64,000 bases of DNA from Anaerobutyricum hallii (GTDB taxonomy: Bacteria; Bacillota; Clostridia; Lachnospirales; Lachnospiraceae), in assembly GCF_900209925.1 (NCBI RefSeq), contig NZ_LT907978.1, positions 1,795,219 to 1,859,218 of the forward strand. Direction: 5' to 3'. Shown piece after piece: positions 17,184 through 62,788 of the stretch. The notes beneath the pieces were generated by a model. That model did no database searches and had not been told where the DNA came from. It saw only the letters and a program-made list of their open reading frames with translations. The position numbers and the translations under genes are program-made. The number at the start of each line of letters is the position of its first letter. The first letter of the stretch is position 1.

Positions 17184-17300
17184 GAAAAAAGAAACAATAC
17201 CATATCCCATCTGCTCTGTAGTCGTTGTGTTTAAAATACTCGTTCGCATCTTAAACACACTCCGAAGCCGCATCTGGGATATGGTATTGTTTCTTTTTTC
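17184..17300 (-). repeat. 117-bp hairpin, type I copy A
   Basis: Two perfect 26-bp arms (17184-17209 and 17275-17300) flank a 65-nt core with its own inner stem (GTGTTTAA/TTAAACAC). In the minus orientation the core reads GATGCGGCTTCGGAG and later CGACTACAGAGCAGAT. Flanks include TGTAGATTT and AAATCTA as outer inverted repeats. It lies upstream of the kinase and between mosaic repeats. Confidence 0.85.
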
Positions 17301-17536
17301 TGACTATCTAAATCTACAGTTGGCGAGAATGGGGGATTCTCCAGAAAGATATGGCTTTCCAGGAAATCAAATTCCAAGAAACTGACATTTATATAAGGAG
17401 TTTTATTTTTTCTGTCGGTATCCCTTACTATTTTCTTATGGCGAAACCGTTCTCTGATTAAAAACCATAGACTTCTGGGCAATCCCCTCTCCATTCAAAA
17501 TTAAAATACTAATTTCCATCTGGAGCCAAAGAACAG
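17301..17536 (-). repeat. Mosaic repeat block between hairpins
   Basis: In minus orientation the block holds TTGGCTCCAGATGGAAATTA, then GGGGATTG, CTATGGTTTTTAATCA, a TTTCCTGGAAAGCCATATC segment and GGAGAATCCCC. Related strings recur at 51755-51990 and near 52.05 and 62.6 kb. The outer GGGGATT and AATCCCC parts are inverted relative to each other. There is no credible ORF. Confidence 0.55.
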
Positions 17537-17685
17537 AAAACCAGAAATAGAATATAGAAGAAAATATGATGTCGGAGCAAGTAAAAATGCCGAACAGGCA
17601 TTTTCTGCGCCGCGACTATCTTCACATTTTCTTCTATATTCTATTTCTGGTTTTCGTTTCTTTAGTCCATCAAATTAGTATTTTA
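17502..17685 (+). repeat. Hairpin type II copy F with terminal inverted repeats
   Basis: A 118-bp hairpin (arms of 29 bp, 17537-17565 and 17626-17654, perfect) carries the core GTCGGAGC and CGCGACTA. Around it lie 14-bp inverted repeats, TAAAATACTAATTT (17502-17515) and AAATTAGTATTTTA (17672-17685). The right one contains the glyA stop codon and the two sense codons before it, so the element forms the end of that gene. Confidence 0.8.
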
Positions 17686-18922
17686 TACTCTCATAAATTG
17701 GGTATTTCTCTGTAAGAGACTTAACGATTGCTTCTGCTTCCTCAAGTTTACGGTCAATAATAGTAAGCTTGATTGCTTCTGCTATCTGTACCATATCTTC
17801 TTCTTTTAATCCTCTAGATGTAACAGCAGGGGTTCCAAGACGAAGACCACTTGTTACAAATGGAGACTGTGGATCATTCGGTACTGTATTTTTATTACAT
17901 GTAATGTGTACAGAATCTAATAATTTTTCCATGTCTTTTCCTGTAAGGCCCATCTTACGAAGGTCTACAAGCATCAGATGGTTATCTGTTCCGCCAGATA
18001 CAATATCAAATCCTCTTTCAATTAATGCATCTGCCAATACAGAAGCATTCTTTACGATTTGTTTCTGATATTCTTTAAATTCTGGTGTTAATGCTTCTTT
18101 TAAGCATACAGCTTTAGCTGCGATTACATGCATTAAAGGACCACCCTGGATTCCTGGGAAGATAGCTTTATTGAAGTTGTATTTTTTATTTACCTCATCG
18201 CTTGATAAAATCATACCACCTCTTGGCCCACGAAGTGTCTTATGAGTTGTTGTTGTTGTAACGTGTGCGTATGGGATTGGGCTCTCATGAAGACCTGCAG
18301 CTACTAAACCTGCGATATGAGCCATATCTACCATTAATACTGCTCCAACTTCATCTGCAATTTCACGCATTCTCTTAAAATCAATCTTTCTTGCATAGGC
18401 GCTTGCACCAGCAATGATCATCTTTGGATGACACTCTAAAGCGATTTCTCTTACTTTATCGTAATCGATCACTCCTTCATCATTCACACCATAAGGTACA
18501 CAATGATAGTTCTTACCAGACATATTTACAGGGCTTCCATGTGTTAAATGTCCGCCATGATCAAGGTTCATTCCCATGTAAGTATCTCCCAGATTCATTA
18601 CTGCAAAGAATACTGCCATGTTGGCCTGTGCGCCGGAATGAGGCTGGATATTAACATACTCACATCCAAACAATTCTTTTGCTCTCTCGATTGCCAGATT
18701 CTCTACAACATCAACATACTGACATCCACCATAATAACGTTTTCCAGGATATCCTTCTGCATATTTATTTGTAAGATGACTTCCCATTGCTGCCATAACT
18801 GCTTCGGATACTAAGTTCTCTGAAGCGATCAACTCCAAATTATTTCTCTGTCTTCCGAGTTCATCTTCCATCGCTTTTGCAACTTCCGGATCAAAATCCT
18901 TCACATAGTCAAAACTAAACAT
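17675..18922 (-). CDS. glyA: Serine hydroxymethyltransferase
   Basis: This 415-residue protein interconverts serine and glycine with tetrahydrofolate as C1 carrier, using pyridoxal phosphate. The PLP lysine lies in [14 protein letters not shown] and the folate-fold signatures NLELIASEN and KRYYGGCQY are present. Length fits GlyA. It works in the same one-carbon pathway as FolD, encoded 8 kb away. The C-terminal codons and the stop lie inside the terminal repeat of an intergenic hairpin element, which probably terminates the transcript. A ribosome-binding site GAGGAAG precedes the start. Confidence 0.95.
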
Positions 18923-19024
18923 ATTTTCTTCCTCCGTATTCTATACTGAATTTTCTAAAATAGATTTGCATATCGAGATTATAGCATACTGATAAAATAC
19001 AAGCAATCATTAAATACTGTAATA

Positions 19025-20398
19025 TTACAGCACTTGAATGACTTCCCGTACATTTGATACACCAATTACCTGTATCTTCTTACAAATATTATTACTGAGT
19101 ACTTCTGCATTTGTCTTTGGCATGATGCATCTTGTAAATCCCATTTTGACGGCTTCAGCCAGTCTTTGTTCAACATGACTGACACCGCGTACTTCTCCGG
19201 TAAGCCCTACTTCCCCAAAAATTAATGTTCCTTCATGAACTGGGAGATTACGATAACTCGATACAACTGCACAGATAATTCCAAGATCGATTGCCGGTTC
19301 ACCAAGCTTCATTCCTCCAGCAAGGTTTACGTAGGCATCACAGCCACCAAGCTGCATACCAGCCTTCTTTTCAAGAACAGCCAATAAAAGATTCACTCTA
19401 TTAAAGTCAATTCCTACGGTGGTACGTCTTGGCATATTAAAACTTGTAGGGGAAACTAACGCCTGAATTTCAATAAGTAATGGTCTTGTCCCTTCCATCG
19501 AACATACAACAACGGATCCGGAAGCATCCGTTGGTCTTCCGTCAAGCATTACTTTTGATGGATTCTCTACTTCCACAAGCCCCTGTTCCTTCATTTCAAA
19601 TACACCAATTTCATTTGTTGAGCCAAATCGATTCTTCACTCCTCGAAGAATTCGGTAAATTGCAGTCTGATCTCCCTCAAAATACAATACCGTATCTACC
19701 ATATGCTCTAATGTTTTTGGTCCTGCTACTACGCCTTCTTTTGTCACGTGACCTACTAAAAATACAGCAATCCCTTCTACTTTTGCAAGCTGCATTAATA
19801 CAGAGGTAACCTCTCTTACCTGACTGACACTGCCCGCTGCGGAAGTAATCTCCTCGCTGTACATTGTCTGAACAGAGTCCACTACAACCATATCTGGTTT
19901 TGCCTCTCTTACAGCTTCTGCGGCTGCATTGATATCTGTTTCGCAAAGTAGAAAAACATTCTCTTTAAAGCCACCAAGACGCTGTGCCCTCATTTTAATC
20001 TGTTTTAAAGATTCTTCGCCGGATACATAAACAACTTTTTTTCCACTGTTCGCCTGATAACGACAAATTTGTAATAGTAATGTTGACTTTCCAATACCGG
20101 GATCTCCTCCAACTAATGTAAGGGAACCTTTTACAATTCCACCACCAAGAACCCTGTCAAGTTCCGGAATACCAGAGCTTGACCTGTCTTCTTCTTCCAT
20201 GGAAACTTCAAATAAACCGGTAAGCTGCTGATGTGGCAGATTATTTCCTCTTTTTCCAACTCCCCTTGATACAGGATTAATCTTCTCCTCCGTCATTGTA
20301 TTCCACTGATGACAGCCGGGACACTGTCCCATCCATTTCGGCGTTTCATAACCACATTCCTTGCAAAAAAATACGGTCTTTGCCTTTGCTTTTGCCAT
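19025..20398 (-). CDS. radA: DNA repair protein RadA
   Basis: RadA (457 residues) is a RecA-like helicase and branch-migration factor in homologous recombination. It has the N-terminal zinc finger (CKECGYETPKWMGQCPGC), Walker A (GDPGIGKST), the KNRFG motif (VKNRFGSTNE) and the C-terminal Lon-like domain. Length and all signatures are normal. It follows a short IS605-like repeat that lies just upstream of the gene. Confidence 0.95.
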   Translation of the reverse strand: MAKAKAKTVFFCKECGYETPKWMGQCPGCHQWNTMTEEKINPVSRGVGKRGNNLPHQQLTGLFEVSMEEEDRSSSGIPELDRVLGGGIVKGSLTLVGGDPGIGKSTLLLQICRYQANSGKKVVYVSGEESLKQIKMRAQRLGGFKENVFLLCETDINAAAEAVREAKPDMVVVDSVQTMYSEEITSAAGSVSQVREVTSVLMQLAKVEGIAVFLVGHVTKEGVVAGPKTLEHMVDTVLYFEGDQTAIYRILRGVKNRFGSTNEIGVFEMKEQGLVEVENPSKVMLDGRPTDASGSVVVCSMEGTRPLLIEIQALVSPTSFNMPRRTTVGIDFNRVNLLLAVLEKKAGMQLGGCDAYVNLAGGMKLGEPAIDLGIICAVVSSYRNLPVHEGTLIFGEVGLTGEVRGVSHVEQRLAEAVKMGFTRCIMPKTNAEVLSNNICKKIQVIGVSNVREVIQVL

Positions 20399-36583: not shown

Positions 36584-36682
36584 ATAGTCATAAATTATGA
36601 CCTAATCTTTACCATTCTATCACAGGATAAAAAAAACTGCAATAGTTGAGGTTACTATTTAATTCATTAAGAGAAAACAGAC

Positions 36683-36799
36683 GAAAAAAGAAATACTACC
36701 ATATCCCATCTGCTCTGTAGTCGCTGTGTTTAAGATGCTTATCCGCATCTTAAACACGCTCCAAAGCCGCATCTGGGATATGATAGTATTTCTTTTTTC
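36683..36799 (-). repeat. 117-bp hairpin, type I copy B
   Basis: Arms 36683-36708 and 36774-36799 (26 nt, one mismatch) flank a 65-nt core almost identical to those at 17.2, 52.2 and 62.7 kb. The right flank is TTTTGGCTCCAGAAGG, a module found in other mosaic repeats, instead of the TGTAGATTT flank. It lies between the Mrr remnant and pnp. Confidence 0.85.
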
Positions 36800-37055
36800 T
36801 GTGTTTTGGCTCCAGAAGGAATGAATGCAATAGTCTTTGGAGAGAGAGATGGGGAAGAGGACAGAAAGGTTCCTGCTTGCTCGGAAGATTTCTTCCATGG
36901 CAGCAGGTTGTTGAAATTTCGTAAGCAAGTAATCTTTGGATACCGTTCTTTAAAAGTCCCTTCCGGATTTTTAAATCGCTTATACATGTCCATAATAATG
37001 TTTACAAATCACGAGATATTTTTTCAATTACTAAACTATACAAACCCCAAAGTAT
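36800..37055 (+). other. Repeat-derived gap
   Basis: Apart from the TTGGCTCCAGAAGG module at its left end the stretch has short unrelated inverted repeats (GGAAGATTTCTTCC) and no plausible gene. Open frames here are by-products of the hairpin. Confidence 0.4.
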
Positions 37056-39327: not shown

Positions 39328-39415
39328 TAACAACCAAAGGGGGGCTTTATATCCCATTTGCTCAATAGATGTTACATTTTTGAATAATAAATTCAACTAT
39401 CGCCAAAGACAGCCT

Positions 39416-39532
39416 CTAAGAAATAATCAAACCCCTATATGTGGTCTCGGAGCAAGTGTTGAATACAAGCTTAAAGCGAGTATTCAACACACCGCGACTA
39501 AAGTTACATATAGGGGTTTGATTATTTCTTAG
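39416..39532 (+). repeat. 117-bp hairpin, type II copy G
   Basis: Perfect 27-bp arms (39416-39442, 39506-39532) flank a 63-nt core with CTCGGAGCAAGTGTTGAATAC and GTATTCAACACACCGCGACTA; the inner stem is 11 bp. Outer flanks GCCAAAGACAGCC and GGGCGTCTGTT match those of copy H. It lies between the convergent GntR and cyclase genes and can terminate both. Confidence 0.85.
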
Positions 39533-39557
39533 GGGCGTCTGTTCCTTCCTAAATTAC

Positions 39558-42839: not shown

Positions 42840-42990
42840 GCCAAGAATTCAGCAATTTGTATAAAATAATTTTGACTTGCTGAAGGCTGTCTTTGGCAAT
42901 TGAAGAAATTTCAGAATTTGTTTTTAGAGAGATTTGAGAAAGGTTTTAGACGGTTGTGGTTAGTCAAAAAATAGCCAGCCAAAGCACAGC
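42840..42990 (+). repeat. Partial repeat-element fragment before copy H
   Basis: GAAGGCTGTCTTTGGC (about 42883-42897) is the inverse of the flank found beside copy G, and the flank of H, GCCAAAGCACAGC, follows at 42978. This looks like the debris of another element. Confidence 0.4.
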
Positions 42991-42991
42991 T

Positions 42992-43111
42992 ATCTGAAAA
43001 TAAAAAAATCTATATTTGTGGCCTCGAAGCAAGTGTTGGATACGAGCAGTAAAGCGAGCATTCAACACGCAACGACTAAAGTCACAAATATAGATTCTTT
43101 TATTTTTAGAT
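42992..43111 (+). repeat. 120-bp hairpin, type II copy H
   Basis: Arms 42992-43020 and 43083-43111 (29 nt, two wobble-type differences) flank a 62-nt core with TCGAAGCAAGTGTTGGATAC and GCATTCAACACGCAACGACTA. The flanks GCCAAAGCACAGC and GGCGTCTCTTTTGCC match those of copies G and I. It ends 30 nt from the stop of the ROK kinase gene. Confidence 0.85.
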
Positions 43112-43141
43112 GGCGTCTCTTTTGCCTACAGTAATCAGAAT

Positions 43142-51220: not shown

Positions 51221-51250
51221 AAAGCTGAAAACCGCAAAGGTCCTCAGCTT
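51221..51250 (-). terminator. Terminator after tRNA-Leu
   Basis: AAGCTGA and TCAGCTT pair around a GC-containing loop, and TTTTTTT follows on the minus strand just past the tRNA 3' end. Confidence 0.75.
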
Positions 51251-51260
51251 CTTCCAACAA

Positions 51261-51345
51261 TGCAGTTGATGGGACTTGAACCCATACCCAGTTAGCCCGG
51301 ACTAGATCCTTAGTCTAGCGCGTATGCCAATTCCGCCACAACTGC
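51261..51345 (-). tRNA. tRNA-Leu (anticodon AAG)
   Basis: The minus strand folds as a class II tRNA of 85 nt: acceptor GCAGTTG/CAACTGC with discriminator A, anticodon arm CTAGA/TCTAG with loop CTAAGGA (anticodon AAG, reads CUU/CUC), a variable arm, and the T arm GGGTTCAAGTCCC. CCA is not encoded. It precedes a terminator. Confidence 0.93.
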
Positions 51346-51496
51346 TTATCAGCGAATGTCTTTCACTCACCAACGAGAATTATTATAACATAATGTATTT
51401 TAGAATGCAAGTATTTTTTTATTAAAATACTAATTTGCTGGGGACACAGACGCCGCTTTGGTAGAAGATATTGAGCTGAATTGTAGTTAGTCTTCT

Positions 51497-51662
51497 AAAG
51501 AAAAAAGAATTGTGATAAGTTTGATTTTGTTCCGTTGCGCTAAGCATTCCATTCTGCCCAGAAAAACAGGAACTTGGGAAAAACGAGTCCCAAGTTCCTA
51601 TGGTCAGAATTCCACAGCGCAAAGTCACAAAATGCAATACTTATCACAATTCTTTTTTCTTT
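51497..51662 (+). repeat. Long multi-stem hairpin J
   Basis: Perfect 24-bp arms (51497-51520 and 51639-51662) enclose a 118-nt loop with further nested stems: TTGCGCT/AGCGCAA, ATTCTG/CAGAAT and AGGAACTTGGG/CCCAAGTTCCT. Outside, AATTGTA/TACAATT and CAGACGCCGCT/AGCGGCTGTCTG extend the symmetry to about 51447-51713. The core differs from types I and II. Confidence 0.75.
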
Positions 51663-52149
51663 ATCATAGTCTTCTTACAATTCAGCATAGAATTTTGTTT
51701 CAGCGGCTGTCTGTTTTTAATAACAAATAGCAAATTAGTGATTTCTGTTGGAAAGAGAAGGGGATTCTCCAGGAGATTATGATTTTTAATCAAAGAACTA
51801 TTTTACCGTAAGAAAATATTCCTCGTCTAGAGCTTCTATTTGGATGAAAACCATAGCCTTCTCGACAATCCCCTCATTCTTCCTCAAATCTAAATACTAA
51901 TTTCCTTCTGGAGCCAAAAAGAATTAGTATTTTAACCTGAGAAGGAAATAAGGGGTTTGCTCAGAATTCTATGGTTTTTGTTGAAATGAAAATCTCCAAA
52001 AAGAAATGTCTTCTCACCAAATTGTAGTCAGTCTTCTAAAAAAAGAATGATTATAAGTTTAAATGTCAATCCTTTAGAATTCAACTTTCCGGAAGGAAAC
52101 ATCCTTCTGGTACATTCCATGCTGTTAAATTGTAGATTTAGAGTAGTCA

Positions 52150-52266
52150 GAAAAAAGAAAAAATACCCTATCCCAGATGCGGCTTCGGAGCGTGTTTAAG
52201 ATGCGAACGAGCATTTTAAACACAGCGACTACAGAGCAGATGGGATAGGGTATTTTTTCTTTTTTC
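52150..52266 (+). repeat. 117-bp hairpin, type I copy C
   Basis: Perfect 26-bp arms (52150-52175 and 52241-52266) around a 65-nt core nearly identical to copy D. Flanks TGTAGATTTAGAGTAGTCAG and TCGTCTATACGAAATCTAC. The right flank continues as CAGTAT followed directly by the purL stop codon. Confidence 0.88.
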
Positions 52267-52293
52267 GTCTATACGAAATCTACAACTCAGTAT

Positions 52294-55200
52294 TTATTTA
52301 AAATATTCTACTCCGCTTTCGAATATCTTCTGATCCTGTTTTGCGTAGATATTCTTCGCGATATTGTCTCCGATACGTTCGGAATGTGCCATCTTACCAA
52401 GGACACGACCATCTGGACTGGTGATACCCTCAATAGCATAATAAGAACCATTTGGATTGAAACGGTCATCCATTGTAGGTTCGCCATTTAAGTTAACATA
52501 CTGTGTTGCAACCTGTCCATTCTTGAATAATTTTTCAATCCATTCTTTACTTGCAACAAAACGTCCCTCACCATGAGATGCAGGGATTGCATAAATCTGG
52601 TCAAGTACGGCTTTGCGAAGCCATGGGGACTTATTTGTTACTACTTTTGTATATACCATAGTAGACACATGGCGGCCAATCTCGTTCATTGTAAGCGTTG
52701 GTGAATCTGCTGTCTGGTTAACAATTTCTCCATATGGTACAAGACCAAGCTTGATGAGTGCCTGGAATCCATTACAGATACCAAGTGCAAGACCGTCTCT
52801 CTCGTTAAGAAGCTTCATAACGGATTCTTTAATCTTTTCATTTCTGAATACAGTAGCAAAGAACTTCGCTGAACCTTCTGGTTCATCACCTGCACTGAAT
52901 CCGCCTGGGAACATAATAATCTGTGCCTGGCTGATTGCCTTTTCAAATGCATCTACGGATTCAAGGATGTCAGATTCTGACTGGTTCTTAAATACAAGTG
53001 TCTCTACTTCTGCTCCTGCGCGGCGGAAGGCTTTTGCAGAGTCATATTCACAGTTTGTTCCTGGGAATACTGGAATAAATACCTTTGGAACTGCAACTTT
53101 ATTCTTGCATACATAAATGTCATTTGTACGGTATAATGGCTGTGATACGTTATGTTTTGTTGCATTTGTCTTTGTAGGGAATACAGATTCTAATGGAGCC
53201 TGCCATACGTCACACATCTCTTTTAAGGAAATCTCTTCTTCACCAACTTGGAAGAATGGATCGTCTGTAATTCTTCCTACGAAAGTATTCGGCAGAACAG
53301 CCATCTCAGCCATCCACTCTGTAGGAATCTCTACAAGAATAGAACCATAATATTTCTTTGTAAGATCTTCCTTATTAAAGTCTCTTACTAACTTCACACC
53401 ATACATATTTCCAAAGCTCATCTTGCTGATTGCCTCAATCAGTCCGCCTGCTCCCAGAGCATATGCAGATGCAATAACATCTTTACGCATTAATTTATGA
53501 ATCGTATCATAAATCTTTCCGGTCTCTTCATAATCTGGAATACCATATTCATCAAATGGAATGTCGATACGTAACAGGTTATTGCCTGCTTTCTTAAATT
53601 CTGGTGTTACAACATGGGAAGCCTTTGTATAATCTACAGCAAAGGATACTAATGTTGGTGGAACGTCGATATCTTCAAAGGAGCCAGACATACTGTCTTT
53701 TCCTCCGATGGATGGAATCCCGAAACCTTTCTGCGCATTGTAAGCACCGAGTAATGCAGCAAATGGTTTACCCCATCTCTTAGGATCTGTGCCAAGTCTT
53801 TCAAAATATTCCTGGAATGTAAGACGAATCTTACGGAAGTCTCCGCCGGCTGCTACAATCTTCGCAACAGATTCAAGAACAGCATATACTGATCCATGAT
53901 ATGGACTCCAGCTTGACAGATATGGGTCAAATCCATAAGACATCATTGTTGTAAGTTCTGTCTTACCTTCTAAAACAGGCAGTTTTGCTGTCATTGTCTG
54001 AATTGGAGTAAGCTGTGTCTTTCCACCAAATGGCATCGTAACTGTTCCGGCTCCGATAGAGCTGTCGAACATTTCTACAAGACCTTTCTTAGAACATACA
54101 TTAAGGTCAGAAAGTTTCTCTGCCCACATCTCTTTTGCATCTTTGAGTTCAGCCTGCTTTTTATAGTAGCATTCTTTCTCGTCAGGCATTTCTACTTCAA
54201 CTGTAGTTTCCTGATGTGCACCATTCGTATCTAAGAAGGCACGTGAAAGATTTACAATTTCTTTTCCTCTCCAGGACATTACAAGACGTTTCTCTTCTGT
54301 TACTTCTGCAACAACTGTCGCTTCAAGGTTCTCTTCTGCCGCATAGGAAAGGAACTGCTCTACATCTTTTTTATCAAGTACAACTGCCATACGTTCCTGA
54401 GATTCTGAAATTGCAAGTTCTGTTCCATCAAGACCTGCATACTTTTTCGGCACTTTATCAAGATCAATGCGAAGTCCGTCTGCAAGCTCACCGATTGCTA
54501 CAGATACACCACCGGCACCAAAGTCATTACACTTCTTAATAAGAGAACTTACCTCTCCACGACGGAATAATCTCTGAATCTTACGTTCTGTAGGGGCATT
54601 ACCTTTCTGTACTTCTGCACCGCAGGTATCAATAGACTTTGTTGTATGTGCCTTAGAGGAACCTGTTGCTCCACCACAGCCATCACGACCGGTACGTCCA
54701 CCTAAAAGTACAATGATATCTCCCGGATCAGAAGTTTCTCTGATAACATTCTTTCTTGGAGCTGCACCGATAACTGCACCAATCTCCATACGCTTTGCAA
54801 CATAACCTGGATGATATACTTCGTCTACTAATCCTGTAGCAAGACCGATCTGGTTACCATAGGAACTATATCCTTTCGCTGCACCTGTAGTCAGCTTTCT
54901 CTGTGGCAGCTTGCCCTTCATGGTGTCTGCCATTGGAACAGTAGGGTCTGCACAACCTGTGACACGCATTGCCTGATATACATAGGAACGTCCTGATAAT
55001 GGATCGCGGATTGCTCCTCCAAGACAGGTAGCAGCACCACCAAATGGTTCAATTTCTGTTGGATGGTTATGAGTCTCATTCTTAAAACTGATAAGCCATT
55101 CTTCTGTCTTATCTTCAAATTCTACAGGAACAACAATGCTGCAGGCATTGATTTCTTCACTTTCTTCCATGTTATCAAGAAGTCCGTCCTGTTTTAACTT

Positions 55201-56052
55201 CTTCATTCCCATAAGTGCGAGATCCATCAGACAGATAAACTTATCTTTTCTGTCTCCATATACTTCCGTACGGTCAGCAAGATATTCATTATATGTTTTT
55301 TCAAAGAGAGGCTTATAATATCCCTCACCAAAAGCAACATCTTTTAATTCTGTTGAAAATGTTGTATGACGACAGTGATCAGACCAGTAGGTGTCTAATA
55401 CACGAATCTCTGTCATAGAAGGATTTCTGCTTTCTTCTCCCTGATAATAATTCTGGATATAACGGAAATCTTCAAATGTCATTGCAAGACCTAAAGAATC
55501 ATAAAGCTTCTTCAATTCTTCTTCCGGCATATCTTTAAATCCATCAAAAATCGCAACATCAGCCGGATCTTCATAATCCATAACTAATGTTTCCGGTTTC
55601 TTCTCGTCTGCTTCTCTGGAATCTACTGGATTGATACAGTATTCTTTAATCTTCTCCAATTCTTCATCACTGATATTGCCAGAGAAAACGTAGGTTGTTG
55701 CAGAACGAATGATTGGTTCTTCCTTCTCATCAAGAAGCTGAAGACACTGTACTGCTGAATCTGCTCTCTGATCAAACTGTCCAGGAAGAAATTCTACGCT
55801 AAATACTTTATCTCCATCTTTCTTAGGGAAATCTTCCTCATATAAATCATCTACAGGCGGTTCTGAGAATACGGTAACTGCCGCTTTTTTCATAGTTTCT
55901 GCTGAGACATTCTGCACATCATAGCGAATTAACTCTCTAACATCACTGACATCCTCTATGGAAAGATATGCCTTTAATTCTTCTGCAAGTTCTTTTGCTT
56001 TTACCGCATATGACGATTTCTTTTCTACATATAATCTCTTTACCTGACTCAT
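52294..56052 (-). CDS. purL: Phosphoribosylformylglycinamidine synthase, single-chain PurL
   Basis: The 1252-residue enzyme makes FGAM in purine synthesis. It has the N-terminal PurS-like domain, the synthetase domain (TFSTELKD, HNHPTEIEPFGGAATCLGGAIRD, GGKDSMSGSFED) and a C-terminal glutaminase (PGTNCEYDSAKAF, nucleophile Cys in LALGICNGFQAL, ASHGEGRF). Many Bacillota split this into purS, purQ and purL; the fused long form is common in Lachnospiraceae. Start at 56052 (MSQVKRL) behind GGAGG; an upstream TTG at 56064 is less likely. Its stop codon borders hairpin C. Confidence 0.95.
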   Translation of the reverse strand: MSQVKRLYVEKKSSYAVKAKELAEELKAYLSIEDVSDVRELIRYDVQNVSAETMKKAAVTVFSEPPVDDLYEEDFPKKDGDKVFSVEFLPGQFDQRADSAVQCLQLLDEKEEPIIRSATTYVFSGNISDEELEKIKEYCINPVDSREADEKKPETLVMDYEDPADVAIFDGFKDMPEEELKKLYDSLGLAMTFEDFRYIQNYYQGEESRNPSMTEIRVLDTYWSDHCRHTTFSTELKDVAFGEGYYKPLFEKTYNEYLADRTEVYGDRKDKFICLMDLALMGMKKLKQDGLLDNMEESEEINACSIVVPVEFEDKTEEWLISFKNETHNHPTEIEPFGGAATCLGGAIRDPLSGRSYVYQAMRVTGCADPTVPMADTMKGKLPQRKLTTGAAKGYSSYGNQIGLATGLVDEVYHPGYVAKRMEIGAVIGAAPRKNVIRETSDPGDIIVLLGGRTGRDGCGGATGSSKAHTTKSIDTCGAEVQKGNAPTERKIQRLFRRGEVSSLIKKCNDFGAGGVSVAIGELADGLRIDLDKVPKKYAGLDGTELAISESQERMAVVLDKKDVEQFLSYAAEENLEATVVAEVTEEKRLVMSWRGKEIVNLSRAFLDTNGAHQETTVEVEMPDEKECYYKKQAELKDAKEMWAEKLSDLNVCSKKGLVEMFDSSIGAGTVTMPFGGKTQLTPIQTMTAKLPVLEGKTELTTMMSYGFDPYLSSWSPYHGSVYAVLESVAKIVAAGGDFRKIRLTFQEYFERLGTDPKRWGKPFAALLGAYNAQKGFGIPSIGGKDSMSGSFEDIDVPPTLVSFAVDYTKASHVVTPEFKKAGNNLLRIDIPFDEYGIPDYEETGKIYDTIHKLMRKDVIASAYALGAGGLIEAISKMSFGNMYGVKLVRDFNKEDLTKKYYGSILVEIPTEWMAEMAVLPNTFVGRITDDPFFQVGEEEISLKEMCDVWQAPLESVFPTKTNATKHNVSQPLYRTNDIYVCKNKVAVPKVFIPVFPGTNCEYDSAKAFRRAGAEVETLVFKNQSESDILESVDAFEKAISQAQIIMFPGGFSAGDEPEGSAKFFATVFRNEKIKESVMKLLNERDGLALGICNGFQALIKLGLVPYGEIVNQTADSPTLTMNEIGRHVSTMVYTKVVTNKSPWLRKAVLDQIYAIPASHGEGRFVASKEWIEKLFKNGQVATQYVNLNGEPTMDDRFNPNGSYYAIEGITSPDGRVLGKMAHSERIGDNIAKNIYAKQDQKIFESGVEYFK

Positions 56053-56232
56053 TACATCCTCCAAGTATGTTTAATTAAATTGTGGGGACAATTTATTAAT
56101 CAGCCCCATATTTTCTGTTTAAATTATCATATCACTTTTTTATTCTATTTCCTATGGTTTTATATCAGTTTCTATAAAACCATGAATTCTGACAAAAATC
56201 GACGACAAAATTTCAAAAAATTTTTAGATTTT

Positions 56233-57177
56233 TTACAGATGAATTCTCTTGATTATCTGAAATACCAAAAGATTTGAATAGACAACAGGCCTTGTCTCTG
56301 CGTAAAAAATGATACCGTCTGTTGGTGCTGTAACTTCCGAAATAATTTCTCCGCTATCTGCCTTCATGATCTGCGCCAAAACATCCCCCCGGCTTACTTC
56401 CTGACCACACTCTGCTTTTCTTATAAAGATACCTGCCGCCTCTGTCATAATTGGCTCCAGATCACTTTCCTTTAAAACACTTGCGATATATCCACTATGA
56501 GAATAATAACGGATAATACCCATTCTTGTAAGAAAACGCAGAATAGAAGAAACTGCCTGTGTTGCAAGCTCATCATCAATTTTCCCTGTCATTCCTGTGT
56601 ATAAAGAAAATGCTTCTGTTCCATTTCTTTGCCAGTTGTTATGTAATGTCGTTCTGTCAAACGGTCTGCTTTTTGCTTCAATAACATAGGGAAGTCCGAA
56701 CAGATTGGCAAGACTGGTGCTTCCATGTTCCGGGTCAAGAAGACGGATATGTGGCATAAAAGTTCCTCCAAGATAAAAAGAAGGTAAATGAATTCCATAC
56801 CGGTACCCTCTTGTTGTTTCCATAATTGCATATGCCACACGACTTCCTGATTCACCTGACGGATTCCCCGGAAACAACCTGTTTAAGTCCGTATCATCAG
56901 AAATCCAGAAACGTTTACCAAAATCCATCGACATATTGTTTACGGAAGGAATCACTAAAATACCATTCTCTCCTACCATATCTCCATGCTTTTCTATCTT
57001 TTTTAATACATCGATCAGTTTTGAACAAATATATAATTGCTGATATTCATTTCCCCTCAAAGCTCCCACAATGCAAGCAGAGCGTTCTTTCCCTTCATTT
57101 TTTCCGAAATAATATCCTTTTACATTAATTTCCTGCTGAAAAGGAGATTCCATCGAATACAATATTTTTTCTTCCAT
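56233..57177 (-). CDS. AspA/SGDS-like protein with altered zinc site
   Basis: The 314-residue protein has the fold of succinylglutamate desuccinylase/aspartoacylase (M14-like): the family motif GxHGxE appears as GALRGNE, with Arg in place of the zinc-binding His, and the region of the catalytic Glu reads AFSLYTG where the neighbour has VIESG. The third metal-site His may be the one in YGIHLPS. It probably cannot work as a normal zinc hydrolase. It follows its paralogue by 20 nt and may form a complex with it or bind a ligand. Confidence 0.75.
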   Translation of the reverse strand: MEEKILYSMESPFQQEINVKGYYFGKNEGKERSACIVGALRGNEYQQLYICSKLIDVLKKIEKHGDMVGENGILVIPSVNNMSMDFGKRFWISDDTDLNRLFPGNPSGESGSRVAYAIMETTRGYRYGIHLPSFYLGGTFMPHIRLLDPEHGSTSLANLFGLPYVIEAKSRPFDRTTLHNNWQRNGTEAFSLYTGMTGKIDDELATQAVSSILRFLTRMGIIRYYSHSGYIASVLKESDLEPIMTEAAGIFIRKAECGQEVSRGDVLAQIMKADSGEIISEVTAPTDGIIFYAETRPVVYSNLLVFQIIKRIHL

Positions 57178-57197
57178 TATGCCCAGTCCTCCTTTTG

Positions 57198-58151
57198 CTA
57201 TTCATATTTTCCGGCAGGTCTTTCTGCCTTGCAGATTCTTGCCAGAAGTTCTCCCTCACAAACCGCCGGATATTCTCTCAAACTAAAAATCATTCCGTCA
57301 CAGGAAGACTTTACCTCCTCAAGCTCTGCCCCAAGAATCGGCCGCACGATACAGCCAAGTACCTGATTTTCTCTTACAAAACTTCCAATCTGTATTTTAG
57401 GAATAAAAATTCCACTCGTATTACAGTGAATAACTTCCACATCATTTTTCTTTACTGTCACTGTTTTTTTCGTAGGAGAAACTTCTCCTTCAAAAACTTC
57501 CAGTTCCTTCATCATCCGAAAAATACCATCTATTACCTTTTTACAGTACTCATAATCAATTTTAAGTGCAATCCCCGACTCAATCACCAGGTTCGGGATA
57601 CCTTTTCTCCGAAGGCTGTACGCAAGACTTCCTTCCCAAACAGAAGAAGAATTACTGTTCATCCATAAAACTGGAATTCCTGACTTTTGCGCAAGCTCTG
57701 TCACTTTTTTCCCTGCATTCTCCGGCACTCGTATCTGGGGAAGTTCCCGAATAAAAATATCACTTGAATGGATATCAATACAAAAATCTGAACCTTTTAA
57801 ATCCTCAATTACTTCTGCTGCCATATATTCTATCGTATGTCCATGATGACTTCCCGGAAACATCGCATTCATATCAAGAGCTCCTGGAGCATTACGCTTT
57901 CTTATTTCCAGTGCCATAGGAGCCACACATGGATATACATCTACAATTCCTTTCAGATTCTCTCTTTCCTCTTTAATCCGCCGAATCAGTTCATAACAAA
58001 TATACTGTCCTTGCAGTTCATCACCATGAACACCTGCAACAATACTTAATCTCGGCATATTTTCCTGTATCGTATCCGGCTCTAACCTGTTCTTCTTTAT
58101 TTTTATCGGAAGTCCTACCGGCATCTGTGCCGTCATTACTGTCTCTATCAT
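57198..58151 (-). CDS. Succinylglutamate desuccinylase/aspartoacylase family protein
   Basis: The 317-residue protein has the intact zinc site GVHGDE (His and Glu) and DIHSS, plus the catalytic Glu in LVIESG. Members remove acyl groups from amino acids. A C-terminal beta domain (EVIHCNTSGIFIPKIQIGSFVRENQVLGCIV) resembles a lipoyl-like barrel. The start at 58151 (MIETVM) follows GAGGGGAG; a longer frame begins with TTG at 58172. The paralogue downstream has lost the zinc residues. Confidence 0.8.
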   Translation of the reverse strand: MIETVMTAQMPVGLPIKIKKNRLEPDTIQENMPRLSIVAGVHGDELQGQYICYELIRRIKEERENLKGIVDVYPCVAPMALEIRKRNAPGALDMNAMFPGSHHGHTIEYMAAEVIEDLKGSDFCIDIHSSDIFIRELPQIRVPENAGKKVTELAQKSGIPVLWMNSNSSSVWEGSLAYSLRRKGIPNLVIESGIALKIDYEYCKKVIDGIFRMMKELEVFEGEVSPTKKTVTVKKNDVEVIHCNTSGIFIPKIQIGSFVRENQVLGCIVRPILGAELEEVKSSCDGMIFSLREYPAVCEGELLARICKAERPAGKYE

Positions 58152-58293
58152 ATATAGTCTCCCCTCTGTCAATCAAAAAAATTTCTGTTGTTTCTTATAT
58201 TGACCTTTTTAATTTTGTAAGCTATCATTAGCTTCGTATAGAATATACTATAAAATTATGTTTTGCAAATTTTATATAAGGAGGAACCATATC

Positions 58294-58773
58294 ATGGATA
58301 AAATAGCAAGCTTTACCGTAAATCATTTAGATTTAATCCCGGGAGTATACGTTTCAAGAAAGGATTATGTAGGAAAAGAAGTTCTCACCACCTTTGACCT
58401 TCGTATGACCGCTCCAAACAGAGAACCCGTTATGAACACAGCAGAACTTCACACAATTGAACATCTTGCCGCAACGTATTTAAGAAATAATGACGAATGG
58501 AAAGAAAAAGTCATTTACTTTGGACCAATGGGCTGTCGTACCGGATGTTATCTTATCCTTGCAGGTGACTATGAATCTAAAGACGTTGTTGGTCTTGTAC
58601 GCGATACTTTTGCTTTTATCGCTGATTACGAAGGTGAAATTCCTGGAGCCGCTGCAAAAGACTGCGGAAATTATCTTGATCAGAATCTTCCAATGGCCAA
58701 TTATCTTGCAAAAAAATATTTAAAAGAAGCGTTAAACAATCCTTCTGAAAAAAATCTGATTTATCCTGAATAA
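58294..58773 (+). CDS. luxS: S-ribosylhomocysteine lyase
   Basis: LuxS (159 residues) splits S-ribosylhomocysteine into homocysteine and the AI-2 precursor DPD. The metal-binding HTIEH and the Cys in GPMGCRTGCYL are intact, as is the family start MDKIASFTVNH. It recycles the methyl cycle and feeds homocysteine toward the sulfur genes at the right end of the window. Start 58294 behind AAGGAGGAA. Confidence 0.95.
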   Translation: MDKIASFTVNHLDLIPGVYVSRKDYVGKEVLTTFDLRMTAPNREPVMNTAELHTIEHLAATYLRNNDEWKEKVIYFGPMGCRTGCYLILAGDYESKDVVGLVRDTFAFIADYEGEIPGAAAKDCGNYLDQNLPMANYLAKKYLKEALNNPSEKNLIYPE

Positions 58774-58811
58774 TATTTTAACTTTTTCACATACTACCTC
58801 CGTACCTGATA

Positions 58812-58890
58812 AATGTACTCTCGAAATTATTTTGGTACTGACAGAATTTAATTACAAAAGTAAGTGCAAGAAAGACTCCGAGAGTACATT
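58812..58890 (+). promoter_or_regulatory. Recurrent hairpin leader, copy 2
   Basis: AATGTACTCTCG (58812-58823) pairs perfectly with CGAGAGTACATT (58879-58890) across 55 nt that contain ACAAAAGTAAGTGCA. Arms and loop motif match the leader at 32316-32374, and both end about 20 nt before a start codon. Candidate cis-acting RNA. Confidence 0.6.
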
Positions 58891-58912
58891 CTTGAAAAAA
58901 GGAGGATTTATC

Positions 58913-59107
58913 ATGAAAAGTTCAAAGAAAACCTATCAGGAAGTCGCAGAAGCATGCAGCAAATATGAACCGGTATCTGAGGAATCCGCATTTAAAAATT
59001 CTTCCTGCGAATGTAGTACTCCAAGCTGCTTAAACTGCACACATTTCACGAAGCAGGAACACTGCGATTTAGATTTATATGATCAGATTGTAGAAAAAAT
59101 TAAATAA
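58913..59107 (+). CDS. Small Cys-rich protein downstream of luxS
   Basis: The 64-residue protein from ATG 58913, behind AAAGGAGGA, contains CECSTPSCLNCTHF and a CDLDLYDQIVEKI tail. Four or five closely spaced Cys suggest a metal or cluster site. It is conserved in Lachnospiraceae in my recollection but has no known role. A longer frame from 58832 would run through the hairpin leader and has no site. Confidence 0.7.
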   Translation: MKSSKKTYQEVAEACSKYEPVSEESAFKNSSCECSTPSCLNCTHFTKQEHCDLDLYDQIVEKIK

Positions 59108-59143
59108 TTCTGGGTTGCCGCAGGCAAAGGGAGAGACGCGCCC

Positions 59144-59258
59144 AAAGAGAGCAGCACCGCTATATTGGTGACTCTATCACTGCGGGTTGAATGTTCGCTT
59201 ATCCGCTCGCATTCAATCCTCGCTCTAAGGCCACAAATATAGCGGTGCTGCTCTCTTT
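59144..59258 (-). repeat. 115-bp hairpin, type II copy I
   Basis: Perfect 23-bp arms (59144-59166 and 59236-59258) extend with a mismatch into GGTG/CCAC. In minus orientation the core is TTTGTGGCCTTAGAGCGAGG ... CATTCAACCCGCAGTGATAG, clearly related to copy H. The flanks GGCAAAGGGAGAGACGCGCC and GGAGCGTTTGTTTTGC match those of G and H. It lies 37 nt past the stop of the small Cys-rich gene. Confidence 0.8.
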
Positions 59259-59372
59259 AGGAGCGTTTGTTTTGCTACGCAACTCAAGATTGATCTGGCT
59301 TGCCAAATCAGAATCCAATGTTGTATAATACCCTTAGTGGTAATTTTTTTCAATATACAGGGGGTTTTTATT

Positions 59373-60164
59373 ATGCAGTTACTTAAAGTTTATTATGCGT
59401 ATTTTAGTCCGGGAAATACTACAGAAAAAGTTCTTTCCCGAATTGCGTCATCTTTTGAAAATTATCCAGTGGAATCTATCAATCTTACAAGTTATGATGA
59501 ACGTCAGCAAGAATATCATTTTAAAGAAAATGAACTTCTTATCATCGGTGTACCTGCCTACGGTGGCAGAGTTCCCGTTCCAGTTGTCGATGCATTAAGC
59601 CGCTTTTCCGGTTTAAATACACCTGTCGTCCTTGTTGCAACATATGGAAATCGTGACATTGATGATACGTTGATGGAATTAAAGAAAAATGTAACAGATA
59701 AAGGATTTATCCCAGTTGGTGCAGCTTCTTTTGTATGCCAGCATACCTTCTTAAAGGAATGTGCCGAAGGCAGACCAGATGAAGAAGATTTAAAAATGGC
59801 CAAAGAATTTGGTGATAAATTAAAAGAACGCCTTCGTCTTCTCGTTACATATGATACCTCTAACTTAGAAGTTCCTGGTTCTTTCCCATACACAAAGCCA
59901 CCTATGGGTGAATTTCCATTCAAAGTTGAAACAAACGACTACTGTATCTACTGTATGCTCTGCGCAGATGTATGCCCGGTAAAAGCAATCAGTGACAGCA
60001 ATCCAAAAGACATTGATAACAGCAAATGTCTCCGCTGTGGCTCCTGCCTTAGAATCTGCCCAACACAGGCAAAGTCCTTTACAGAAGAGCCATTTAAAGC
60101 ATTACAGCAGAAATTAGCACCACTTTGTGGAATAAGAAAAGAAAACTGGTATACGATTTGTTAA
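59373..60164 (+). CDS. EFR1-type flavodoxin-ferredoxin fusion
   Basis: The 263-residue protein joins an N-terminal flavodoxin-like domain (YYAYFSPGNTTEKV, the FMN loop; IIGVPAYGGRVPVP) to a C-terminal 2[4Fe-4S] ferredoxin (CIYCMLCADVCPVKAI and CLRCGSCLRICPTQA). It should pass electrons between flavin and clusters in the cytoplasm. EFR1 proteins are frequent in anaerobes; the redox partner is unknown. ATG 59373 follows AGGGGG. Confidence 0.9.
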   Translation: MQLLKVYYAYFSPGNTTEKVLSRIASSFENYPVESINLTSYDERQQEYHFKENELLIIGVPAYGGRVPVPVVDALSRFSGLNTPVVLVATYGNRDIDDTLMELKKNVTDKGFIPVGAASFVCQHTFLKECAEGRPDEEDLKMAKEFGDKLKERLRLLVTYDTSNLEVPGSFPYTKPPMGEFPFKVETNDYCIYCMLCADVCPVKAISDSNPKDIDNSKCLRCGSCLRICPTQAKSFTEEPFKALQQKLAPLCGIRKENWYTIC

Positions 60165-60165
60165 C

Positions 60166-60267
60166 TATGATGGTGCCAACTACGATCTGGCTTTATGGGC
60201 TGCTTATTATAACTTCCTGCGGTCATATAATTTAAATCTGCCAGCCGAAGGCTCTAACTGTTCTTAG
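60166..60267 (+). pseudogene. Transposase C-terminal scrap
   Basis: The frame YDGANYDLALWAAYYNFLRS without a start, ending in TAG, resembles the end of a DDE transposase (the ALW.AYYNFLR pattern). The rest is gone. The following 230 nt to 60497 hold repetitive but unidentified sequence with minus-strand frames that may belong to the same relic. Confidence 0.4.
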
Positions 60268-60497
60268 ATTCCAAACCAGAGGTAATAAACCAGCCACCGC
60301 ATTAGCGGCTATACCCTTGATGGCACATAAAAGAACTGCTACACTGCTGTAAACGACGGAAAAATCACTAACTATTCTTGAATTCTTCGCCGTCGGTGAA
60401 TCACCTACAATAGTTCTTTTGTGTGCTGTCAAGGGTGGGCAGTCTACCTCTGACTAAAATATCTGCAATTTTCAAGGTTCCAGTACTCTTTTCAAAC
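60268..60497. other. Unassigned gap, probable IS relic
   Basis: A 66-codon minus frame (60232-60432) crosses most of the gap, but has no ribosome-binding site and looks like IS-derived sequence. I see no promoter or RNA. Confidence 0.3.
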
Positions 60498-61040
60498 TTA
60501 TAATTTCTTTCCAAGTTCATATGCTTTTTTCATCGTATCCACATGATCAGCCGCTGTATTTGCGTCATCAATTCCACCGCCACCGACCATGCCTTTTAAG
60601 GAAGCCTTTTCAAAACAGTCTACCCAGCCTTGCAGACCATTGTAGGCTTTTTCGAATGCAGTTTCATCATTCTCAGCGGCAGTTGCAATCATATAAATAT
60701 CTCTGAATGAATAATCTGTCGAATATAATGGATTCAATCTATCAAGAAGTGTTTTCATCTGACCGCACATCTCATAGTAATAAATTGGCGTTGCATAGAC
60801 AATGACCTCCGCCTCCTTTACCTTTGCCATAATATCTGCAACATCATCCTTCAGTACACACATTCCAGTCTTCTGACAGGATAGACAACCGATACAATAT
60901 TTGATATCTTTTCCTTTCAAAGAAAGAAGTTCCACATCATGCCCAGCTTCTTTAGCTCCCTTTGCACACTCCTTTGCGAGCATATCAGAATTGCTGCCTC
61001 CTCGAAGACTTGTAGATATGATCAATACTTTTTTTGTCAT
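60498..61040 (-). CDS. Flavodoxin-like NAD(P)H-dependent oxidoreductase
   Basis: This 180-residue FMN_red protein has ISTSLRGGSNSDMLA (phosphate-binding loop), CIGCLSCQKTGMCVLKDD (a Cys-rich loop found in many anaerobe members) and YATPIYYYEMCGQMKTLLDRL. It probably reduces quinones or other small molecules with FMN. It is the last gene of an operon in which the two upstream genes are broken. Confidence 0.88.
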   Translation of the reverse strand: MTKKVLIISTSLRGGSNSDMLAKECAKGAKEAGHDVELLSLKGKDIKYCIGCLSCQKTGMCVLKDDVADIMAKVKEAEVIVYATPIYYYEMCGQMKTLLDRLNPLYSTDYSFRDIYMIATAAENDETAFEKAYNGLQGWVDCFEKASLKGMVGGGGIDDANTAADHVDTMKKAYELGKKL

Positions 61041-61042
61041 AA

Positions 61043-61632
61043 TTAAATTTCTCCTTTTTCAGTGTCTTTTTTAACCTTCCGTATAACTTTCGCAGGCACT
61101 CCTGCCGCAACCATATTGGCCGGAACATCTTTTGTTACAACTGCTCCGGCTGCAATGATCGAACCTTCACCAATTGTAACCCCTGGAAGAACCGTCACAT
61201 TTGCTCCAAGCCACACTTTTTTTCGATGTGAATCGGCTGAAATATCATACCTGCTCTTTTCTCGGGATCTTCCATATGATTGATCGTTGCCAATACTGCA
61301 TTATGTCCAATCAGGACTCCATCCTCTATATAAATACCACCCTGATCCTGAAACTTACATCCTGCATTAATAAAAACATTTTTACCTATATGGATATTTC
61401 GTCCGCAGTCTGTATAAAACGGAGGAAACATTCCAAAACTTTCATCTATTTTTTGTCCGGTAAGTTCCGACATAAGCTGTATAATTTCTTCTTTTGTATG
61501 ATATTTGTTATTCAGCTCCATCGTTATCTTTAATGCCCTTTGAGACAGCTCATGCATAACCAGATGTTCTTCACTTCCACCATCTACGATATATCCGGGT
61601 TTCATATTACTCAAATATTCTTCACACGTCAT
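61043..61632 (-). pseudogene. Maltose/galactoside O-acetyltransferase, A7-tract frameshift
   Basis: The first frame (61195-61632) gives the N-terminal MAC domain and most of the hexapeptide beta helix (NIHIGKNVFINAGCKFQDQG). It then stops. The next frame continues [20 protein letters not shown] and [12 protein letters not shown] to a stop at 61043. The break lies in a run of seven A on the coding strand (61217-61223); eight A would give [11 protein letters not shown]. It is either a recent inactivation, polymerase slippage, or an assembly error. Confidence 0.8.
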
Positions 61633-61634
61633 AA

Positions 61635-61962
61635 TTAACCAACTCCGTTTTCTTTAAAAAATTTCTGAATTTTGTCAAATGGGATCACATCCAGATTATC
61701 GTAAAGATCTATATGAACAGTTCCCCATCGTCTGCGCATATAATCCGGAACACTGTTCTTTGACTGCACCAAATGGTCCGCTTACGGCAATTGCAGGATA
61801 TTTCCCAGATACATTTTTCGGCTTATACAGATCTGCGGCAAGCGTGATTCCATAACGATTTACAAATGTCACTTTCTTATGGTCTACTTTTTCACTCTGT
61901 AGAAAAGTTTTATCCCATTCAGATACCAGCTGTAATTCTTCTGTTTTTAACATATTTAACAT
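61635..61962 (-). pseudogene. Alpha/beta hydrolase remnant with internal deletion
   Basis: The frame begins MLNMLKTEELQLVSEWDKTF and reaches SGPFGAVKEQCSGLYAQTM, the N-terminal strand region of YcjY/DLH-like hydrolases. It then jumps, out of frame, to TVHIDLYDNLDVIPFDKIQKFF, which is the very end of such a protein. The central part, with the nucleophile Ser and Asp, is missing, and the open frame stops at 61696. A MerR-type promoter lies directly upstream. Confidence 0.7.
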
Positions 61963-62016
61963 CCTCCATATGCAAAATTTCTTGTAATTACACTAACAAT
62001 AGTATATGATATAAAT

Positions 62017-62047
62017 ATCATACAACCTAAAGTTAGCTTTAGGTCAA
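62017..62047 (-). promoter_or_regulatory. MerR-type promoter with 19-nt spacer and operator
   Basis: On the minus strand TTGACC (62042-62047), a 19-nt spacer and TATGAT (62017-62022). The spacer holds most of the inverted repeat ACCTAAAG-TTAG-CTTTAGGT (62025-62044). Overlong spacers with such a dyad are the mark of MerR-activated promoters. The MerR gene reads away from it. Confidence 0.82.
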
Positions 62048-62072
62048 GCATAATTTTGAAAGAAGGTTTTTT

Positions 62073-62510
62073 ATGTATACAATCGGTCAGGTCTCTGCAA
62101 TATTTGGTCTTCCTGTTTCTACCTTAAGGTATTATGACAAGGAGGGCTTTTTCCCTAATCTGAAACGCAAGGGAAATATCCGTTATTTCAGCGATAATGA
62201 ATTGGAAGCGCTTCGTATCATTGAATGTCTGAAGAAATCGGGTCTTGAGATCAAAAATATAAAGCAATTTTTTATCTGGGTATCTGAAGGCAGCTCCAGC
62301 TATGAAAAAAGGAAAGAATTATTTGAATCCAGAAAATCAGCTGTTGAAACTGAAATCCAGGAACTTCAAAAAACTCTCTCCCTCTTAAAATTCAAGTGCT
62401 GGTATTATGAAACAGCAATGAAAGATGGTAACGAAGATGCTATAAATGCCATGTTACCTGACAAGCTTCCAGAAAATATACAAAAACTATATAACAAAGG
62501 ACATGAATGA
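62073..62510 (+). CDS. MerR family regulator
   Basis: The 145-residue protein has the MerR winged helix (YTIGQVSAIFGLPVSTLRYYDKEGFFP) and a dimerisation helix, then a short end without the Cys residues of metal sensors, as in the YyaN/AdhR-like group that senses aldehydes or disulfide stress. It is divergent from the hydrolase-acetyltransferase-oxidoreductase operon. It likely activates that operon through the 62017-62047 promoter. Two of the three target genes are degraded. Confidence 0.88.
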   Translation: MYTIGQVSAIFGLPVSTLRYYDKEGFFPNLKRKGNIRYFSDNELEALRIIECLKKSGLEIKNIKQFFIWVSEGSSSYEKRKELFESRKSAVETEIQELQKTLSLLKFKCWYYETAMKDGNEDAINAMLPDKLPENIQKLYNKGHE

Positions 62511-62671
62511 TTTTTGTTTTCTTCATCAAATACATAATTTAACATGAAAGTAAATAAGCATTTGAAACAACATACAACAACTTGAATGTCAATTCTTCAG
62601 AATTTAATTTCCCGGAAAGTCATATCCTTCTGGTACATACCACGTTGCCAACTGTAGATTTAGAATAGCCA

Positions 62672-62788
62672 GAAAAAAGAAAAAATAATACATCCCAGAT
62701 GCGGCTTCGGAGCGTGTTTAAGATGCGGATGAGCATCTTAAACACAGCGACTACAGAGCAGATGGGATGTATTATTTTTTCTTTTTTC
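62672..62788 (+). repeat. 117-bp hairpin, type I copy D
   Basis: Perfect 26-bp arms (62672-62697 and 62763-62788) around a 65-nt core. The left flank CAACTGTAGATTTAGAATAG and the preceding TTTCCCGGAAAGTCATATCC match the other copies. The right flank ends with CAGTAT directly before the cysK stop codon. Confidence 0.88.

Follow-up and report, generated by a model that had tools for sequence, protein, structure and literature searches.

Palindromic units of about 117 bp at gene ends of Anaerobutyricum hallii carry mostly different stems at sites shared by two genomes

A stretch of 64,000 nucleotides from the genome of Anaerobutyricum hallii (contig NZ_LT907978.1, positions 1,795,219 to 1,859,218; hereafter the window, its source being the window genome) carries eight hairpins of similar length, and the question is raised of what kind of unit these are and how they came to their present places. 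A sequence-only reading of the window had offered two options, a folded RNA or a mobilised single-stranded DNA unit. The pair of options was well chosen, but the two halves did not fare equally: the DNA unit is the better supported, because of the lineage-restricted high copy number, the terminal motif pairs in some copies, the subtype replacement and the lack of a clear G.T excess, and the RNA becomes its main rival. The eight hairpins were found to belong to a large family with paired stems, most members of which face a stop codon in one polarity, and at sites shared with a second genome, that of A. hallii DSM 3353, the stems are mostly different; the polarity, the position at stop codons and the replaced stems all go beyond what the earlier reading had seen. 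With moderate confidence we regard the units as high-copy mobile palindromes of the kind of repetitive extragenic palindromes (REP) and miniature inverted-repeat transposable elements (MITE), the folded strand of which would be recognised by its loops, and the subtypes of which would overwrite each other at gene ends.

All eight hairpins were recovered by inverted-repeat search (arms 31-50 nt, 80-97% complementary), and comparison of the copies bore out their common architecture, their related asymmetric core and their occurrence in both orientations, the core-oriented strands being 17184(-), 17537(+), 36683(-), 39416(+), 42992(+), 52150(+), 59144(-) and 62672(+). Read on the strand that carries the core as 5' TCGGAGC ... 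GCGACTA 3', the unit forms a hairpin of 115-120 bp (about 117 bp) that varies slightly from copy to copy. Above the foot loop stands an outer stem of about 26-32 bp; the asymmetric core separates it from an inner stem of about 11-15 bp, which is capped by a loop. The 23-29 bp first given for the arms is somewhat short. The foot loop (5' CAG / 3' CGTCT) extends the unit beyond the hairpin proper, and many copies also carry a 12-bp terminal motif. By core and stem, four subtypes were distinguished: A (TTTAAGATG), B (AAAAATGCC), C (with a long loop, GTGTTGAATAC-like) and D (a small mixed group).

The predicted fold rests on covariation. Among 128 distinct aligned copies, 85.4% of the cells pair as compared with 62.4% after shuffling, two-sided changes occur in 42 of the 45 stem pairs, and 1137 two-sided cells were counted against 313 in shuffled and 234-363 in slid controls; since the structure guided the alignment, these figures lean towards that structure. 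The variation of the arms had been noticed before but understated, since the arms vary and yet stay almost perfectly complementary. The columns of TCGGAGC and GCGACTA are 0.79-1.00 identical, in part owing to selection of the copies by the model, and many stem columns 0.35-0.7. The regular expression used for collecting copies accepts only those in which the core letters are present and the stem is paired, so that it overlooks divergent ones and builds in part of the core conservation; it underlies the stem, gene-end and terminal-motif counts given below (sets of 98, 145 and 175 copies).

The base pairs of the outer stem, without the four positions adjacent to the core, were counted in 98 pattern-collected copies. 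The copies of the window genome gave 1841 Watson-Crick, 11 G.T, 8 A.C and 98 other pairs, and those of DSM 3353 gave 869, 12, 5 and 16, respectively. Both genomes together thus hold 23 G.T against 13 A.C, small counts without clear G.T excess. An apparent excess in DSM 3353 (35 against 5) was discarded, because 21 of the 35 came from one core-adjacent position and 12 against 5 were left without the four positions nearest the core. Most of the other pairs in the window genome (89 of 98) fall on two adjacent positions and represent a regular GA/GA of the A type; at the fifth and sixth positions counted from the core, A-type outer stems carry this tandem mismatch, with non-pairs in 45 and 44 of 67 window-genome copies. 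A stem that stays paired and yet varies without clear wobble excess looks more like DNA-level copying or correction than selection on an RNA, the copies being related and the counts small. With its variable, near-perfect stem and conserved loops, the family lends itself naturally to telling palindrome correction at the DNA level apart from selection on RNA.

How many copies exist, and in which hosts, was assessed by pattern and by covariance model. The pattern CGGAGC-N20-45-GCGACTA matched four times in the window and never in 100 shuffles of it, and CGGAGC-N20-45-CGACTA matched 172 times on the whole 3.516-Mb contig of the window genome, against three matches of the reversed pattern. A covariance model built from the eight window copies (R1) scored these at 84-138 bits, as expected by construction for training copies, and disclosed no ninth place in the window, the other eight of the 16 listed matches falling on these places again, read from the opposite strand, at 25-53 bits. 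On the window genome R1 gave at least 150 matches, every one at 97.7 bits or more, among the best 150 candidates scored; a total of about 440 copies in this genome is a guess extrapolated from eight per 64 kb. Among 41 genomes R1 matched two alone, the window genome and DSM 3353, with at least 84 matches each, and none of the 22 other genomes of the genus was matched. A second model built from 133 copies of the family (R2) matched two of 397 genomes of the Lachnospiraceae, the other 395 giving no match under strict filters with the best eight candidates per genome scored, a setting that weak homologues could escape. A scan of the genomes of 84,980 species, possibly not including the window genome, with an exact A/C-type pattern returned 14 stretches, all from A. 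hallii. The two hosts are close relatives (glyA 99% identical), both of them gut bacteria. The sequence-only reading had advised modelling the eight copies and searching the family; further copies indeed abound in the genome, within a range of two genomes.

The earlier reading could not match the hairpins to a named family, nor could we. Rfam 15 at gathering score found one tRNA alone in the whole window, two copies searched at relaxed threshold gave sub-gathering matches only, the best being plant miRNA and plastid families and none of them credible, and no direct match to a transposon end appeared in what was searched. Neither lack of further copies nor a known transposon end or Rfam family, each of which would have spoken against a new family, was thus encountered in these searches. 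In the open-licence literature no published description of the hairpin family was found.

The position of the units relative to genes was surveyed with simple open reading frame (ORF) calls, restricted to copies for which 400 bp of sequence were available to either side (145 of 145 in the window genome and 27 of 30 in DSM 3353). In the window genome, the 3' side of the unit faces a stop codon within 60 bp in 98 of 145 copies and a start codon in three, whereas on the 5' side stop and start codons were found in three copies each. The same polarity was observed in DSM 3353 (a stop lies within 60 bp of the 3' side of 18 of 27 copies and of the 5' side of 2 of 27). About a hundred of the gene 3' ends examined in the window genome (98 copies), and probably more genome-wide, bear a common lineage-specific structure that could change transcript ends. 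The units of the window, the genes next to them and one terminal motif are as follows.

17177..17304, minus strand: hairpin with A-type core (inverted repeat; R1 128.1 bits), with no stop on its 3' side, where a gene start lies about 240 bp off
17533..17660, plus strand: hairpin with B-type core (inverted repeat; R1 89.3 bits); its 3' end abuts the glyA stop
17673..17683, plus strand: gene-side terminal motif AATTAGTATTT, which contains the glyA stop codon; inverted partner at 17504-17514, minus strand
17675-18922, minus strand: glyA (Pfam SHMT)
34382-36475, minus strand: pnp-like gene (Pfam)
36676..36803, minus strand: A-type hairpin (R1 126.1 bits), about 200 bp before the start of the pnp-like gene and so not at a stop
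39408..39542, plus strand: C-type hairpin (R1 103.8 bits); the gene 39558-40265, minus strand, has its stop codon 17 bp away
42985..43120, plus strand: C-type hairpin (R1 103.7 bits); the ROK gene has its stop codon 23 bp away
43142-44074, minus strand: ROK gene (Pfam)
52146..52273, plus strand: A-type hairpin (R1 137.8 bits); the purL-like gene has its stop codon 22 bp away
52294-56064, minus strand: purL-like gene (Pfam)
59132..59267, minus strand: hairpin with divergent C-type core (TTAGAGC ... GTGATAGAG; R1 84.1 bits), following a 91-aa ORF at 58832-59107, plus strand, that has no Pfam match
62668..62795, plus strand: A-type hairpin (R1 135.6 bits); the cysK-like gene has its stop codon 23 bp away
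62817-63746, minus strand: cysK-like gene (Pfam)

Because of the stop-codon polarity on the 3' side, many pairs of hairpins in minus/plus orientation may represent the two ends of convergent genes; the pair at 17.2 and 17.5 kb sits between genes of the same direction and is not of this kind.

At the unit start, in gene sense, the gene-side end motif AATNCTRATTTG was found in 96 of 175 copies against four after shuffling, the A type often adding TAG, and its inverted counterpart at the distal end in 45 of 175 copies against two, over half of the copies being without it. In the 63 copies with both this gene-side motif and a facing stop, the stop starts at -3 to -1 in 27, at +5 in 14, at +12 in six and elsewhere in 16; the gene-side end thus supplies a stop for each frame. 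Short protein tails such as NTNL or LIH are encoded by the unit. The NTNL tail of an MnmA-like protein (G000:C1:2879418-2880488, locus L228) is one such tail. For four genes, glyA, cysK, mnmA and a short DhaM-like gene (the latter two named by reading and not by family search), comparison with relatives placed the unit at the native protein end, the ends differing by 0 to about 5 residues. The dinucleotide before the motif is TA in 33 of 96 cases on the gene side and in 19 of 45 on the distal side, and AA in 29 and 16.

Are the occupied sites old or recent? The gene-side flanks of 30 window-genome elements matched the DSM 3353 sequence examined, and after removal of eight of which the flank was itself repeat sequence, 22 sites were compared, 21 of them reciprocal best matches (L038 had no back match). 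DSM 3353 carries a family element at 15 of these (10 found by script, three recognised by eye as the script pattern missed them, two cut by contig ends); the remaining seven hold a degenerate hairpin (three: glyA, purL and L192), a different hairpin family (one, L003), no hairpin (two, L033-1502 and L163) or no sequence (one, L038), all classes beyond the ten of the script being assigned by eye. At 13 of the 15 shared sites the subtype differs, A, B or D in the window genome being matched by C or a C-like variant in DSM 3353, and at two it is the same (window 42987, C type; L199, A type). At the pnp-like site, the C-type stem of DSM 3353 is interrupted by a contig end, and the flanking letters of both genomes are identical as far as the foot and divergent beyond; at the cysK-like site DSM 3353 has a C-type stem, at the purL-like site a remnant alone, and at glyA a degenerate hairpin. 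The degenerate units at the glyA end (L098) and at the L192/L151 site of DSM 3353 have lost the core and are now simple hairpins with the foot kept.

At ten sites the arms of orthologous elements are 0.34 identical as compared with 0.35 for unrelated sites (permutation p 0.91), a test that omitted the two contig-cut sites, L040-718, L197 (its foot misplaced by the script) and L199 (A type in both). Arm identity is 0.87 among the A arms of the window genome and 0.65 among the arms of DSM 3353. When the test was repeated by script on the ten sites that the script had found (L197 and L199 among them), the values were 0.42 against 0.43, and 0.36 against 0.38 without L199, which alone gave 0.92. 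Identity of the flanking DNA ranges from 77 to 96% over the 22 sites and from 78 to 93% over the ten compared. Since the flanks are alike while orthologous arms are no more alike than unrelated ones, the sites are old and most stems new; gradual drift of the stems at fixed sites, for which extra similarity between orthologous arms would be expected, was found unsupported by the test and by the recount. Because sister species differ in subtype at most shared sites, how palindromic repeats spread, and whether their replacement uses a folded strand, become testable.

In the mechanism that we favour, a putative transposase or recombinase would recognise the unit in its folded, single-stranded form by means of two internal loops that are asymmetric, the foot CAG/CGTCT and the core TCGGAGC/GCGACTA. 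The stems would act mainly as paired spacers, the sequence of which would be free to change as long as both arms change together. Mobile units of this sort would have come to rest chiefly next to stop codons and with a single polarity, and insertion would cost the gene little because the gene-side end AATNCTRATTTGTAG provides all three reading frames with a stop codon. Once the two species had separated, new subtypes, namely A and B in the window genome and C in DSM 3353, would have overwritten the residents at existing sites instead of merely adding new sites, perhaps by active exchange rather than by ordinary gene conversion. An extended version, which we consider doubtful, is that gene ends in this lineage are slots contested by self-replacing structured DNA, recombination of folded strands swapping the stems while keeping loops and site, and rival subtypes sweeping the genome in a drive-like manner.

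Several observations weigh against units that move in this way. No facing stop within 60 bp was found for 47 of the 145 window-genome copies, and the shared sites fit vertical retention under selection equally well. No clean empty site was seen between the two genomes, neither of the two hairpin-free sites among the 22 being clearly empty. A TA target duplication is suggested but not clear, TA preceding only a part of the motifs and AA being nearly as frequent. One A/C-type pattern gave no match in viral contigs, and blastn gave none for one A copy in phages or one C copy in plasmids. A mobilising enzyme did not emerge from the loci of Y1 and DDE_3, the families searched. At all seven Y1 loci of the window genome, viewed with flanks of a few kb, the nearest element lies at about 1 kb, and likewise at four of the five loci looked at in DSM 3353 (out of six), the fifth (L227) having one at 0.36 kb. 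DDE_3 (IS630 type) gave one match in the window genome and none in DSM 3353, and the 3.4 kb of the window-genome locus (L157) contain neither an element nor the end motif with up to one mismatch. Y1 transposase, which is present in 16 of 24 genomes of the genus, was set aside as the mobiliser since no Y1 gene is closely flanked by copies at the examined loci, and DDE_3 since it could not be convincingly linked. At L227, the element (15841-15971) stands beside a Y1 match (16326-16631) with a stop in its frame, and none is close on the other side.

If the unit is instead a module of RNA 3' ends, transcribed with the upstream gene and ending, stabilising or processing the mRNA (terminator-like or RNase III-like), selection would keep the unit while its stem drifts or is converted. 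This explanation, possible and on balance rather unlikely, draws on the position and polarity at stop codons, on the family element retained at 15 of 22 orthologous sites, and on the A-rich/T-rich arms of the A type, as in bidirectional terminators. Terminator-like hairpins within 130 nt of the stop at four genes were found in 13 of 61 relatives' cases (0.2 expected), none of four in the window genome and one of four in DSM 3353, a modest hint, by this strict rule less than the first impression by eye, that the unit has taken over the 3'-end duty from native terminator-like hairpins; the mnmA relatives, however, are also mostly without terminators (1 of 15). The unit resembles an intrinsic terminator in being a hairpin right after the stop codon, but it is far longer, has conserved asymmetric loops and shows no T tract by eye in the B and C types, the C-type arms included. 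A terminator scan of the three copies within 44001-64000 flagged just the foot of the 59.2-kb copy. The G.T and A.C pairs were read on the core strand, opposite to the gene, and if selection acted on the mRNA strand, the opposite of the relation observed in those small counts would be expected; moreover, the unit is missing from nearly all relatives searched. Altogether, the RNA module accounts better for position and retention; it accounts less well for the unit being absent from relatives, for the difference in subtypes and for the way in which the stems pair. It appears improbable that the unit is an ordinary MITE mobilised by a DDE transposase with a TA-type target, its stop-codon position being what selection left over and its stems being homogenised by gene conversion. 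The 12-bp inverted end motifs, TA as the commonest preceding dinucleotide and the single DDE_3 gene of the window genome would suit this, and the pneumococcal BOX and RUP are described as MITE-like with terminal inverted repeats and target site duplications (PMC3049150). On the other hand, DSM 3353 lacks a DDE_3 match and the window-genome locus lacks the end motif, the one-sided polarity (98 against 3) is not readily explained by selection alone, and asymmetric loops have been kept against palindrome correction.

We regard it as very improbable that the units are recombination sites of the attC kind, which lie behind genes as folded single-stranded hairpins and on which an integron-type integrase would act. 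The units do stand after the stop in one polarity, and their variable stems with conserved unpaired bases, a structure predicted from covariation, recall the folded strand of attC. In the cases looked at, however, they flank chromosomal housekeeping genes at orthologous places without cassette arrays, and the end boxes of attC are not evident by eye in the consensus. Integron attC sites too are folded hairpins that follow a gene, their structure being more conserved than their sequence (PMC2727003, PMC6393395).

The mobile palindromes that we favour have a close parallel in REP and REPIN elements, which are likewise of high copy number, intergenic, mostly just downstream of ORFs and arranged in pairs of opposite orientation. 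According to a survey of 2013, conv-REPs in two genomes lie mostly less than 20 bp from ORF 3' ends and the GTAG termini often supply a TAG stop (PMC3733652), so that both the gene-end position and the donation of a stop codon by the hairpin end have a precedent. The unpaired GTAG/CGTC end tag of REPs may have a partial counterpart in CGTCT, at the 3' foot of many copies, and in GTAG, in some copies of the A type only. The unit differs from REP and REPIN in its size of about 117 bp against 20-40 bp, in its two conserved internal loops with wholesale change of stems, and in that no gene of RAYT type was closely flanked by copies at the Y1 loci examined. The main text of the REP survey does not contain the word Firmicutes (PMC3733652).

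ERIC and Correia/NEMIS are also short palindromic units with inverted ends and many copies. The same holds for the MITEs RUP and BOX, non-coding palindromes according to PMC3049150, and the terminal inverted repeats of MITEs are present on the unit in the proportions given above for its two ends. The unit is unlike all four in its one-sided stop-codon polarity and in the turnover of stems around fixed loops. A partner transposon with the same ends was not seen at the DDE_3 locus, the one locus looked at.

Other repeats accompany the family. Another hairpin family, longer than this one (TAAAGAAAAAAGAATTGTGATAAGT ... ACTTATCACAATTCTTTTTTCTTTA), similarly has a stem that is paired but varies, and it contains inner hairpins; it was observed at 51472-51690 in the window and also at L022, L040 and L043. 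In DSM 3353 it occupies the end of a gene that is gltX-like by eye, where the window genome has an element of the 117-bp family (L003/L226). The 5' flanks of many copies, for instance 17430-17500 and 51760-51900 of the window, form an intergenic mosaic of further repeated modules. Inspection of these flanks by eye shows that many of the A and B units have beside them two motifs of the TCCAGAAG type, about 45 nt apart, and that near C units there is a related motif.

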